This document shows, one piece after another, positions 20,573-27,409 of a stretch of 39,079 nucleotides of DNA. The first letter of the stretch is position 1; each line of letters opens with the position of its first letter. Origin of the DNA: SAR202 cluster bacterium Casp-Chloro-G3 (lineage in GTDB: Bacteria; Chloroflexota; Dehalococcoidia; Lucifugimonadales; UBA3495); assembly GCA_002816715.1 (NCBI GenBank), contig MUCJ01000001.1, forward strand, positions 1 through 39,079. Reading direction: 5' to 3'. Below the pieces are notes generated by a model. That model made no database searches and was not told the DNA's origin. It saw only the letters and a program-made list of their open reading frames with translations. Both the position numbers and the translations under genes were made by a program.

Positions 20573-21523
20573 TCAGGTTATTACTGTTTTACCGCTTTGC
20601 CGCCGCTGATTCTTGATGTACTGGAATGCGGCTATCGCCGCCGTTGCTCCATCACCCGCCGCTGAGACGAGTTGAGATGCCGAGTTTTGCCGGATGTCGC
20701 CCACCGCATAAAGGCCCGGCGATGAAGTTTCCATGGACAGATTCACCTGGATATGTCCAGAATTATCAGTTTTGGCCACGTCCTTCACCAGGGCAGAGTT
20801 GGGTTCCAAGCCTACGTAGACAAACATCCCGGTCAGACCGATTGTTTCCTCAAAGTTGGTAATATGGTTGCGAATGTGAACTCCGGAGACGGTATCTTCG
20901 CCGATAATCTCCTGAACCATCGCGTTCCAAACGATCTCGATTTTAGGATTGCGTACCAGACGGTCTTGCAATACCTTCTGCGCCCGAAATTCGTCCCGAC
21001 GATGGAATAGCATTACTTTGCCGGCATATTCGGTGAGAGTTAAGGCTTCGTCCGCTGCTGAGTCGCCACCCCCTACCACGCCGACCGTCTCTCCCATAAA
21101 CATGGGGCCGTCGCAGGTAGCGCAGTGGGAAACGCCGCGACCGTTAAACTCATCCTCTCCGGGAATGCCCATTTTACGCAGGCTGGACCCGGCCGCCACA
21201 ATTACCGCTTTGGCCCGGTAGTCTCCAGCATCGCTGTGTACCACTTTGTAGTCGCCGTCTTTTGACACATTGCTGGCCTCGGCCATGATGAACTCCACTC
21301 CGGCGTTCATCGCCTGTTCCTGTGCCGCTGGGCCTAATTCGGCGCCAGCAATGCCCTCTGGGAATCCCGGGAAATTTTCAATCTTTTCTAGATTGATGAT
21401 TTGAGCGCCGCCCATCATCTGTTCAATTATGCCGGTGTGCAGTCCGTAGCGGGCGGCGTACATCCCGGCGGTGAGTCCGGCTAAACCGCCGCCGACAATC
21501 AACACGTCATATTCGTTAGCCAA
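20573..21523 (-). CDS. trxB: Thioredoxin-disulfide reductase
   Basis: NADPH-dependent flavoprotein that reduces thioredoxin in the cytoplasm. The FAD-binding motif GGGLAGLTAG (about 11-20), the redox-active CATC (Cys134 and Cys137), the NADPH-binding GGGDSAADEA and the C-terminal FAD motif YAVGDIR are all present. 316 aa is the normal length. The start is TTG at 21523: AAGGAGGT sits 5 nt upstream, and the next residues are the conserved NEYDVLIVGGG. Divergent from purA. It could feed electrons to the TlpA-type protein through a membrane relay, but no relay gene is seen here. Confidence 0.95.
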   Translation of the reverse strand: MANEYDVLIVGGGLAGLTAGMYAARYGLHTGIIEQMMGGAQIINLEKIENFPGFPEGIAGAELGPAAQEQAMNAGVEFIMAEASNVSKDGDYKVVHSDAGDYRAKAVIVAAGSSLRKMGIPGEDEFNGRGVSHCATCDGPMFMGETVGVVGGGDSAADEALTLTEYAGKVMLFHRRDEFRAQKVLQDRLVRNPKIEIVWNAMVQEIIGEDTVSGVHIRNHITNFEETIGLTGMFVYVGLEPNSALVKDVAKTDNSGHIQVNLSMETSSPGLYAVGDIRQNSASQLVSAAGDGATAAIAAFQYIKNQRRQSGKTVIT

Positions 21524-24017: not shown

Positions 24018-24638
24018 TTAGCCTGTGACGCGATTCTTGAAGAAACCCTGCACCAGTTCTTTTAGCCGCGTCCAGTGGTCATCCAGGGAGTCTTTTTCCG
24101 CGTCGGATAGCTGGTGGTAGGTCTTGCCGAACTGGGGAAAATGCCAGACCGAAAACACCCAGAATCCGGGTTCGCTGAGCTTGCCGGGGGATTCGGTAGC
24201 GATTACTCCGGTGCTGCCTTCTAACACCCAGGATTCCAGGACTGTGCCTTGGTCAGCGATGGCTACCGCTTCAATCCAGGACGCTTCCCGATCGGCACCC
24301 TGGTAGGGGTGCATTATTTCCAGCAACCGTCTCAGGCGTTCATTGTCGTCGGCTGCTGGGCCAGCAAAGCGGTGGGTGAAGCGGCTCTCCCAGTTGTCAC
24401 CCAATGCCGGTATAACCAGGCCACCATCCGAAGCGATAACCAGCATTGAGCTGGCCCTAGACCATTCTTCGGCCTTTTGCTGGGCGATCTCCAGGTGGGT
24501 AGCACCTGATTCGTCGGGGACTGAATCCAGGCCCAGTTCTTGAGGGCTGACGGCGGTCAGGGGCAGTCCCTCCAACAGCCAGCGCAGTGTCTCTTGTTTG
24601 GCTGGATTGCCGGTGGCCAGGAGTATTCGGTTGGTCAT
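24018..24638 (-). CDS. Ham1/RdgB-like nucleoside-triphosphate pyrophosphatase
   Basis: Resembles the Ham1/RdgB (ITPase) family, which removes non-canonical purine nucleotides such as ITP and XTP. The N-terminal LLATGNPAKQETLRWLL matches the family phosphate-binding start, and VIASDGGLVIPAL corresponds to the conserved SD-G-L active-site region. The middle part is less typical: the canonical SARYAG is replaced by THRFAGPAADD, and the C-terminal SHR motif is not evident. 206 aa. It may have drifted in substrate. Lies 10 nt after the deiodinase-like gene and probably shares its transcript. Confidence 0.8.
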   Translation of the reverse strand: MTNRILLATGNPAKQETLRWLLEGLPLTAVSPQELGLDSVPDESGATHLEIAQQKAEEWSRASSMLVIASDGGLVIPALGDNWESRFTHRFAGPAADDNERLRRLLEIMHPYQGADREASWIEAVAIADQGTVLESWVLEGSTGVIATESPGKLSEPGFWVFSVWHFPQFGKTYHQLSDAEKDSLDDHWTRLKELVQGFFKNRVTG

Positions 24639-24648
24639 TGGTTAGTGA

Positions 24649-25383
24649 TTAAACCTGGGCTTTAACGCAGGCTTGGATGGCGTTTTCCCATTCGTCCAGG
24701 TCGAAGAAGTGAGGCCCAGCGCCACCCTGGTAGGCGACCTGGCCGTCGGTGCCAATGAGATAGAGGCGTTCCGGGGCCGCACCGTAGGCTTCGTCGATGG
24801 AATTGTCCATTTCTTCGATCAGGATGGGAATGTCGATGTGTAGGTCCAAGCTACAGGTCTGGGCCACTTCCTCCCGTTCTTGGTAGTTCTGGTGCTGTCG
24901 GAAAAGAACACTCTCGGCGATGTTGCTGTCAGTTTGCCAGCCGTCGGTGGGGTGGGCTTCCTGCACGTAGACCACGAAAAACTCGACCTGGCTGGAGTAA
25001 GTGCGGCAAATTTCCTCCATGCGTCCAACCTGGGCGCGGAAGGGAGGTCAAGTATAACTGCCGAAGACCAGGGCTACCGGACTCTTGCCCCGGAAGCTGG
25101 ATAGCCGCACCCGTTCTTCTGACCCCATTCGTTTCAGGTTGAAGTCGGGAGGAGTCTCCCCAATTTTTGGCCCCATTTCGTCTCGGGACACGACAATTTC
25201 CAGGGCTGCTCGGAGTTCGCCGGTTAGTTCGTCACCGCAGGTCTCCAGCACCTGGCGGGCCGGAATCCTCTGGCTGGAAGTCGCTTTCATTTGAGTCTTT
25301 ATTTCCGTGAGCACCTTACGGAAATTTTGTCGGTCCTCCTGGCTAAGACCCGCTAGTATGCGGTCGCGTTGCGCCTTTTGCAT
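24649..25383 (-). CDS. Deiodinase-like selenoprotein with in-frame TGA (Sec112)
   Basis: Two adjacent frames in the same register are separated only by a TGA at 25050-25048. Read through, they give a 244-residue protein that follows the iodothyronine deiodinase pattern closely: GETPPDFNLKRM and a thioredoxin-like strand, then VALVFGSYT-Sec-PPFR, YVQEAHPTDGW, and YGAAPERLYLIGTDGQVAYQGGAGP. In the animal enzymes the same position reads FGSCT-Sec-PSF and is the active site. The fold is a thioredoxin/peroxiredoxin relative. The start is ATG 25383 with GGGAGAG upstream. The bacterial substrate is unknown; dehalogenation or peroxide reduction are possibilities. Excluding a nonsense mutation needs the genome's selA/B/C/D genes, which are outside the window. 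Confidence 0.85.
25014..25050 (-). promoter_or_regulatory. SECIS-like hairpin directly after the TGA codon
   Basis: Immediately 3' of the TGA the minus strand can fold as CCTCC/GGAGG, an internal loop, GCG/CGC, a 1x1 mismatch, then CCA/TGG closing a GGT apical loop. The loop guanines are 18-19 nt after the TGA, within the usual 16-37 nt range of bacterial SECIS elements, and a G opens the loop as expected for SelB recognition. Confidence 0.75.
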
Positions 25384-25464
25384 ATCGCTCTCCCTGCTGT
25401 ATCTGCGAACGACCAATTTAGACTTATGGTACACCATGTCTGATGTTGAAGTCGCTGTCTGGTG

Positions 25465-26628
25465 TCAGTTTTCCGGAGGGAACAGCATTGGAATCATGCC
25501 AGCATAGGCGGCGTCGTTGGCCATGCCCATGACCAGCCCGGCCCTGGCGTCCCTGAAGTATCGCTCAAAAGGCAGGCGACCGGCGAACGCGGTTCCCCCA
25601 AAGATGGTCATCAAGTCTTGGGTCACTCTCACGCCAGCCTCGGAGCAGAGTACTTTGGCCTGAATGTAAGGCAATTGGGAAGTAGATCTATTTTGGTCGA
25701 AGGCGGAAGCGGCGGCGTGAAGCAGGGCGCGGGCGGCCTCAATTTGGGCGCCCATCTCCGCCATGCGGCGTTGATTGATTGGTATATCGATGCGTCGAGA
25801 GCCGCTAGGATAGCGTTTGGCTACTTCTAAGCAGGCAATTTCATAAGCGCCTGAGGCGATGCCCAGGTAGGCCGCGCCGTAGGTTAGGGTGACTACTGGC
25901 CGATTAAAGCTGTTGGTCTGGCTCTGGACGGTGTGTTCTTCACCCATCAGGTTTTCTTCGGGAACCAGTCCGTTGAACCTGATGGGGCAGCTATTGTTGC
26001 CTCTCATTCCCAGGCCGTGCCAGGGCTCGACAATCTCCCACTCAATCTTGTCTCGTTCCACGAATAATAGGCTGGGCTGACTTTGGGGAGTGTCGGCACC
26101 GATGCGGCACCGGAACTGGTAGTGGCTGGCTTTTCCTGCCGACGTGACGTAGGACTTGCGGACGTTGTTGATCTGGTAGTTGCCCGCTAGCTTTTCTACG
26201 TGCGATACGTTTTGGGTGGCGTTCCAGTTGTCTCCTTCGCCCTGGGATTCGCCCCCGGCTACGGTGGTAAATACTTCTCCCCGGGCCATTGGCTCAACAA
26301 AGTGTTTAACCTGGTAGGGAGTGGGTATGCGGCAGATAATCTCGGCGGCTTCCAGGTGCATTTTGTAGCACATGGCGGTGGAGGGGCACTTTTTGGATAA
26401 CTCTTCGACAATCAGGCAGGTGGTGAGCATATCCTCACCCAGGCCGCCGTGTTCTTTGGAGACTCGAAGACCGAAGAGACCCTCTTTTTTCAGGGTGTCC
26501 AGAGATTCTTGAGGATATTGGCCGGTCTGGTCGGTTTGCTCGGCGCGGGGGGCCAGCTCCCGTTGGGCGATTTCGGCGGCCCGGTCTTGCCAGTCTTGCT
26601 GACTCCTGGTTAGTGGGAGGTAGTTCAT
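25465..26628 (-). CDS. Acyl-CoA dehydrogenase-fold flavoprotein lacking the usual catalytic Glu
   Basis: 387-residue protein of the acyl-CoA dehydrogenase superfamily: N-terminal helical domain (LFGLRVSKEHGGLGED about 50-65), middle beta domain (TVAGGESQGEGDNW and later strands), and C-terminal helical domain with the FAD-contact region MTIFGGTAFAGRLPFERYFRDARAG. In standard enzymes the end reads RDA...YEGT with a catalytic Glu; here it reads RDARAGLVMGMAND, with Gly at that place. No Glu is visible at the alternative helix-G position either. It may be an oxygenase-like or otherwise altered member. ATG 26628 with GGGAGAA upstream is preferred; the upstream extension is repeat-derived. Confidence 0.85.
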   Translation of the reverse strand: MNYLPLTRSQQDWQDRAAEIAQRELAPRAEQTDQTGQYPQESLDTLKKEGLFGLRVSKEHGGLGEDMLTTCLIVEELSKKCPSTAMCYKMHLEAAEIICRIPTPYQVKHFVEPMARGEVFTTVAGGESQGEGDNWNATQNVSHVEKLAGNYQINNVRKSYVTSAGKASHYQFRCRIGADTPQSQPSLLFVERDKIEWEIVEPWHGLGMRGNNSCPIRFNGLVPEENLMGEEHTVQSQTNSFNRPVVTLTYGAAYLGIASGAYEIACLEVAKRYPSGSRRIDIPINQRRMAEMGAQIEAARALLHAAASAFDQNRSTSQLPYIQAKVLCSEAGVRVTQDLMTIFGGTAFAGRLPFERYFRDARAGLVMGMANDAAYAGMIPMLFPPEN

Positions 26629-26693
26629 GACTAGTTCTCCCGGTGTGGGGGTGGGTTGCGCTGGTGCCGGGCTAATCTGGTTTGTTTGATAGC

Positions 26694-26771
26694 TTCCTCT
26701 CCCCTTGCAGGAGAGAACTGAGGTGAGGGGTATCACCCTCATCCCAGCCCTCTCCCCTCAAGGGAGAAGGA
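26694..26771 (-). repeat. Interspersed double-hairpin repeat, family A (inverted copy)
   Basis: Runs opposite to the other copies: CCTCTCCCCTTGCAGGAGAG, then GAGGGGTATCACCCTCATCC, then CTCTCCCCTCAAGGGAGAAGG. Lies between the acyl-CoA dehydrogenase homologue and the cupin gene. Confidence 0.9.
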
Positions 26772-26824: not shown

Positions 26825-27409
26825 CTAGCAGTTGTCGTATTTTTGAGTGACGAAGGGCATTACCTGGCCGGTCTCCAGATTGTAGCGGACTCGATCCAGC
26901 CCCCGAAGGTCGTGGCCGTAACAGTGAATCTCGACGGTGGGACGGTCGGTGAAGTTGTCCATCTGGTGAATCTCATCGACTTCGGGTATCAGCAGCGTTA
27001 CTTCACCCGGCTTGACCACCGCGTCCCGGTCTTTCTCCAGTTTTGCGTAGCCTTCTTTGGAGCGGTCATCAACCCGGCGGAAGCGGGTCTCGGTGAGAGC
27101 GTTGTCCATAACGCCGATCATGCCCCAGGTGCGGTGATCGTGGGGAGAGGCGTGGTCGCCGGGGCCCCAAACAACGGCGGTGACTTGCAGGCCGCTGTCC
27201 CCCTGGTGTAGGAGGTAAGAGCCGTGATTGGCCCGGGGGCCTTTGCCGGTGGGCACACGAAATTGTGCCGGTATGGCGTCGGGGTTGTTAACCAGTCGGG
27301 AAATCAAGGAGGAGCCTTTGTCGAATATCTGTTCCTGGGTGGGCAGGTCTCTGAGCAGGGATTCCATCTCAGATATGAACTCGTCCAGAGAATACTTTAT
27401 TGCGGCCAT
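26825..27409 (-). CDS. Cysteine-dioxygenase-like cupin
   Basis: 194-residue cupin that resembles cysteine dioxygenase and 3-mercaptopropionate dioxygenase, iron enzymes that oxidise a thiol to a sulfinate. The iron-binding HxH is in SPHDHRTWGM (about 89-98) and the third His lies in EIHQMDN or EIHCYGHDL. The eukaryotic crosslinking Cys after HxH is absent, as in most bacterial members. Substrate not predictable; thiol compounds are most likely. ATG 27409 has AAAGGAG at good spacing. Neighbouring genes are transcribed in the same direction but separated by a repeat. Confidence 0.8.
   Translation of the reverse strand: MAAIKYSLDEFISEMESLLRDLPTQEQIFDKGSSLISRLVNNPDAIPAQFRVPTGKGPRANHGSYLLHQGDSGLQVTAVVWGPGDHASPHDHRTWGMIGVMDNALTETRFRRVDDRSKEGYAKLEKDRDAVVKPGEVTLLIPEVDEIHQMDNFTDRPTVEIHCYGHDLRGLDRVRYNLETGQVMPFVTQKYDNC

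Follow-up and report, generated by a model that had tools for sequence, protein, structure and literature searches.

Deiodinase-Like Selenoproteins in Bacteria

Deiodinase-like selenoproteins have been known in bacteria since 2005, when four selenocysteine (Sec)-containing and six Cys-containing members were reported from the Sargasso Sea, together with a bacterial SECIS element, and a redox function was suggested for them (PMC1088965). The family is listed again in the 2008 ocean survey (Global Ocean Sampling, GOS; PMC2398784), and a 2026 review lists a prokaryotic deiodinase-like selenoprotein with the motif UxxC, without function (PMC13188914). The gene described here is located in a window of 39,079 nucleotides (i.e., the whole stretch of DNA analysed) from a SAR202 cluster bacterium. 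It is a further member of this family, and an earlier note on the same DNA had overrated its novelty.

As for the Sargasso Sea and GOS proteins, we find here a PF00837 domain, a predicted catalytic Sec, Cys homologues, and a bacterial SECIS-like element right after the UGA. The difference is that the family can here be assigned to SAR202/Dehalococcoidia, with whole-genome evidence; among the open-licence literature, we found no paper placing it in SAR202 or assaying its activity. Unlike the UxxC example of the review, the window copy reads U-P-P-F and has no second Cys in the motif, like Dio2 and Dio3. With the animal enzymes Dio1-3 (4tr3, 9h48), it shares the thioredoxin/peroxiredoxin fold, the motifs FGSxT-U-PPF and AHxxDGW, and the active-site Tyr, Glu, and His. 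On the contrary, its distal Cys lies at +65 from the Sec position instead of +69 to +76, and its SECIS-like hairpin is inside the coding region, whereas the element of animal deiodinases is found in the 3′ UTR.

Two other groups can be compared with this protein. A second subfamily of the same order, with the motif FGSIT-U-PPC, shares the Sec position, the PF00837 match, and a hairpin-like sequence past the TGA, but differs by its lower PF00837 scores (around 40–65 bits), its UxxC motif, and a loop without DGW. It is represented by loci L122–L128 and L131–L133 (U-G-P-C in L133), with several copies in genomes G093 and G114. The peroxiredoxins (PF00578) belong to the same fold class and have the same N-terminal PDFxL...LSxFRGK...V module; however, their match to our protein (33 bits) is much weaker than that of PF00837, and the deiodinase omega-loop insertion is present here.

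Organization of the Locus and Family Assignment

The features of the locus are as follows:

24649–25383, minus strand: deiodinase-like selenoprotein gene (predicted), 244 residues with Sec112; ATG at 25383-25381, TAA at 24651-24649
25048–25050, minus strand: in-frame TGA, predicted Sec codon (GSYT-U-PPFR), residue 112; codon conserved in relatives
25021–25037, minus strand: SECIS-like hairpin with a stem of 6 bp and a loop of 5 bases (AGGUU), beginning 10 bases past the TGA; one C.A mismatch
25384–25400, minus strand: upstream region with a Shine-Dalgarno-like GGGAG a few bases 5′ of the ATG, read directly in the sequence
24018–24638, minus strand: HAM1/RdgB-like NTP pyrophosphatase (PF01725, 64.6 bits), beginning about 10 bases past the selenoprotein stop
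25465–26742, minus strand: acyl-CoA dehydrogenase (PF02771/PF00441), upstream neighbour; adjacency not kept in relatives
26825–27409: gene of the cysteine-dioxygenase type, lying some 1.4 kb upstream of the ATG of the selenoprotein gene
20573–21523: thioredoxin-reductase gene (343.3 bits, just below the 343.45 cut-off), some 3 kb away from the selenoprotein gene

Two open reading frames lie here in the same register, the TGA at 25050-25048 being their sole interruption. The earlier note had proposed that this TGA falls at residue 112, on the Sec position of deiodinases, and both the reading frames and the alignment with the animal enzymes bear this out. Indeed, a phmmer search against the PDB retrieved the mouse enzymes Dio3 (E 6e-25) and Dio2 (E 9e-22), and residue 112 aligns with their active-site position, at which the Sec is mutated to Cys in the PDB sequences. 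The catalytic motif FGSxT-(U/C)-PPF is found as GSYT-U-PPFR, with residue 112 at the Sec/Cys position, and the omega-loop AHxxDGW as AHPTDGW (residues 143–149). The claim that the family resemblance extends to both sides of the TGA is also upheld: the joined 244-residue protein matches PF00837 (T4_deiodinase) with 116.5 bits (cut-off 27) across the TGA, and the half downstream of it, alone, still reaches 84 bits. A match to AhpC-TSA (PF00578) also passes its cut-off. When the own genome was searched, the same locus was recovered with one TGA inside, and none of the seven other long TGA-joined frame pairs of the window matched a Pfam family.

The AlphaFold2 model, built from an alignment of 29 rows, has a mean pLDDT of 82.6 and falls below 50 only at residues 148–160. 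Compared with the PDB by Foldseek, it has Dio2 and Dio3 (9h48, 4tr3) as its top two matches. The locus is best explained as one intact gene, predicted to encode a selenoenzyme with a thioredoxin/peroxiredoxin fold that belongs to the deiodinase family.

The genes surrounding the selenoprotein gene vary between lineages. HAM1 is also found downstream in some relatives, with a Pfam "cyclase" gene in between, and in these relatives the gene is preceded by four-domain rhodanese and sulfite-oxidase-type genes and, in some of them, by cysteine-dioxygenase-type genes. In one group of relatives, clusters of cysteine-dioxygenase-type, four-domain rhodanese, and sulfite-oxidase-type genes with the selenoprotein gene were noted at L094 (1988-4282), L097 (4671-5900), and L107 (1980-5900). 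The neighbourhood comparison revealed no partner gene common to all relatives. The thioredoxin reductase of the window is a possible source of reductant, its linkage to the gene not being evidenced in relatives.

Conservation of the TGA Codon and Exchange with Cysteine

We compared the window locus with 29 loci from related genomes, and the TGA is present at the same codon (GSYT-U-PP) in all 30. A set of 28 Chloroflexota loci (Dehalococcoidia/SAR202), which overlaps with these 30, carries it too. More broadly, PF00837 passes its cut-off in 60 of the 247 related genomes, and nearly all the strongest matches contain exactly one internal TGA. In more distant homologues, i.e., those of Opitutia and of one Planctomycetia genome, TGC is found at the position of codon 112. 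One of the Opitutia Cys homologues (L115 5578-6516) has an EF-hand-like N-terminal part (DTDKDG...DANGDG) before its deiodinase domain, and resembles the EF-hand/deiodinase-domain fusion reported in PMC9402790.

Downstream of the TGA, the residues E142-A143-H144, D147-G148, Y208, and G223-P224 are invariant in the aligned homologues. Unrelated residues at position 112 together with decay of the downstream half, which the earlier note had named as evidence against its reading, do not occur: relatives have only Sec or Cys at this position, and the half after the TGA shows strong conservation. This is, from the aligned codons, the classical Sec/Cys exchange. Because the TGA is conserved and exchanged with Cys in this way, decay and sequencing error are both ruled out. 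An error at the TGA would be conceivable in a draft genome that is 67% complete and consists of 60 contigs, but the same TGA is found in independent assemblies from many projects, which refutes this explanation and leaves it a negligible probability. Together with the hairpin and the selB described below, this makes it almost certain that the TGA is decoded as selenocysteine, and we consider it highly probable that the gene encodes a selenoprotein of the deiodinase family, decoded with Sec.

A Conserved Hairpin Downstream of the TGA

The earlier note had also proposed a SECIS-like hairpin just after the TGA. This proposal is valid for the family, where the sequence GCGCTC-AGGTT-GAGCGC or a variant of it is found 10 bases past the TGA. 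Among 31 distinct TGA sequences, the stem forms on average 5.42 of 6 Watson-Crick pairs, vs. 3.10 ± 0.16 expected (maximum 3.55) when codons are swapped for synonymous ones (300 draws), and the mean folding energy is −9.2 vs. −5.1 kcal/mol in this synonymous-codon null. In the 30 aligned rows, 93% of the stem cells are paired. Moreover, nine cells are changed on both sides of the stem, vs. 2.6 ± 1.3 in shuffles, and none of the 500 shuffles reaches nine. The pairing signal is lost when the stem partner is slid by 1–3 columns. The hairpin is kept beyond the protein-coding requirement. It is absent from the six Cys homologues, which form 1.83 pairs vs. 1.94 expected. The conserved loop begins with A-G (columns 20-21 of the hairpin alignment), its G being conserved; these features fit the bacterial SECIS, which has a small apical loop with a G (PMC1088965).

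For the window itself, the proposal is not sustained to the same degree. Its own hairpin is weaker than that of the family, with the C.A mismatch in the stem, and its single-sequence folding is not significantly better than that of shuffled sequences (z −1.28 to +0.53), so that the signal is seen only by family comparison.

Selenium Machinery and Other TGA-Containing Genes

The own genome (G000; 1.36 Mb) contains a full-length selB (355.6 bits, cut-off 242). Of the four genes that the earlier note had suggested searching for, this is the one recovered. In this 67%-complete assembly, we found no selC (the RF01852 matches being tRNA-Arg, His, Leu, Ser, and Lys), no selA (the sole match being partial and weak), and no clear selD, the two best matches lying below the selD cut-off. 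One of these two is ThiL, and the other fits SelD no better than HypE/ThiL. Among the 247 related genomes, selB passes its cut-off in 208, selC (tRNA-Sec) in 207, and selA in 199. Since most relatives thus carry selA, selB, and selC, the three genes for which these counts were made, we put the missing selA, selC, and clear selD down to the incompleteness of the assembly. The absence of selB and selC from a complete genome, which had been named in advance as evidence against selenocysteine, is not what is observed: selB is present, the assembly is incomplete, and selC is found in most relatives.

In the same genome, three further genes of the peroxiredoxin/thioredoxin family are interrupted in frame by a TGA that falls on the active-site position:

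G000:C3:21415-21795 (L143): FTGG-U-TDQ gene
G000:C33:4718-5170 (L144): HFA-U-LPCRE gene
G000:C15:4478-4831 (L146): WTYC-U-INC gene

Together, they form a small selenoproteome; a SelW-type search of the own genome retrieved nothing.

These observations bear on two other ways to explain the TGA. It could be a nonsense mutation of a former Cys codon, the downstream half then being a relic, and the lack of selA and selC in the assembly would agree with such a dead gene. However, the presence of selB and of three other TGA-containing redox genes speaks against it, and the conservation of both the identical TGA in all the loci compared and the invariant downstream residues refutes it, so that we give it practically no credit. 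The TGA could also stand for an ordinary residue, e.g., Trp or Gly, in a different genetic code, and any code in which TGA is read would indeed leave the frame open. Against this, two of the nine clear window genes checked terminate in TGA, the residue of distant relatives at this position is Cys rather than Trp or Gly, the hairpin is confined to the TGA genes, and selB is present; recoding is thus extremely improbable. Selenocysteine decoding would proceed by SelB and the Sec-tRNA reading the UGA, aided by the hairpin located just downstream.

Active Site and Proposed Activity

From the fold and the position of the Sec, the protein is very likely a selenolate redox enzyme. In the proposed cycle, the Sec112 selenolate would attack an oxidised or halogenated substrate, which may be a peroxide, an organic halide, or an oxidant of the sulfenyl/persulfide type. 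The selenenyl intermediate would then be resolved by Cys177, which is invariant in the aligned homologues and is the distal Cys at +65, and/or by an external thiol, for instance from the thioredoxin system, regenerating the selenolate.

The earlier note had left the function open between peroxide chemistry and reductive dehalogenation, and we keep both, with unequal weight. In a true reductive dehalogenase, also a selenoprotein, Sec112 would act by the mechanism of deiodinases on halogenated aromatics, from which it would strip iodide or bromide. Several characters are in agreement with this activity, such as the deiodinase motif around the Sec, the closest solved folds being Dio2 and Dio3, and the retained active-site network, i.e., Tyr139, Glu142, His144, His164, and the omega-loop AHPTDGW (for the roles of these residues, see PMC7506546). 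On the other hand, an Arg or Lys near the GG-x-GP turn is the proposed clamp of the thyroxine carboxylate; in Dio3 it is Arg275, and its Ala mutant has low activity (PMC7506546); the equivalent here is Ala222 (GGAGP), and this Ala is nearly invariant in the bacterial family. Similarly, the proximal Cys of Dio1, which bonds with the Sec and is required for glutathione-dependent reduction (PMC9141512), and which Dio3 also has, is replaced by Tyr110. Moreover, neither in the window nor in relatives was a gene of iodine or halogen metabolism recognised beside the selenoprotein gene. We therefore regard dehalogenation of halogenated aromatics as unlikely.

Because the Arg clamp is replaced by Ala and the proximal Cys by Tyr, a peroxiredoxin-like reductase is favoured over a true deiodinase: the enzyme would probably, though by no means surely, reduce a peroxide or a thiol-type oxidant. 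The choice between peroxidase and dehalogenase is made on these two substitutions and on the common fold, with the AhpC-TSA match also counted.

Significance

For twenty years, deiodinase-like selenoproteins of bacteria have been catalogued without a function, and standard annotation would break the window gene in two at its TGA. This gene is a well-defined target for expression and assay, because it is of the animal type and is found in an identifiable lineage, with a whole-genome context, a conserved hairpin, and Cys counterparts. It is a rather improbable prospect that SAR202-type bacteria use this animal-type (U-P-P-F) selenoenzyme to dehalogenate environmental iodinated or brominated organics; if they do, the deiodinase reaction would also occur in bacteria, outside thyroid-hormone metabolism. 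The activity of the window protein would bear on the origin of the thyroid-hormone deiodinases.
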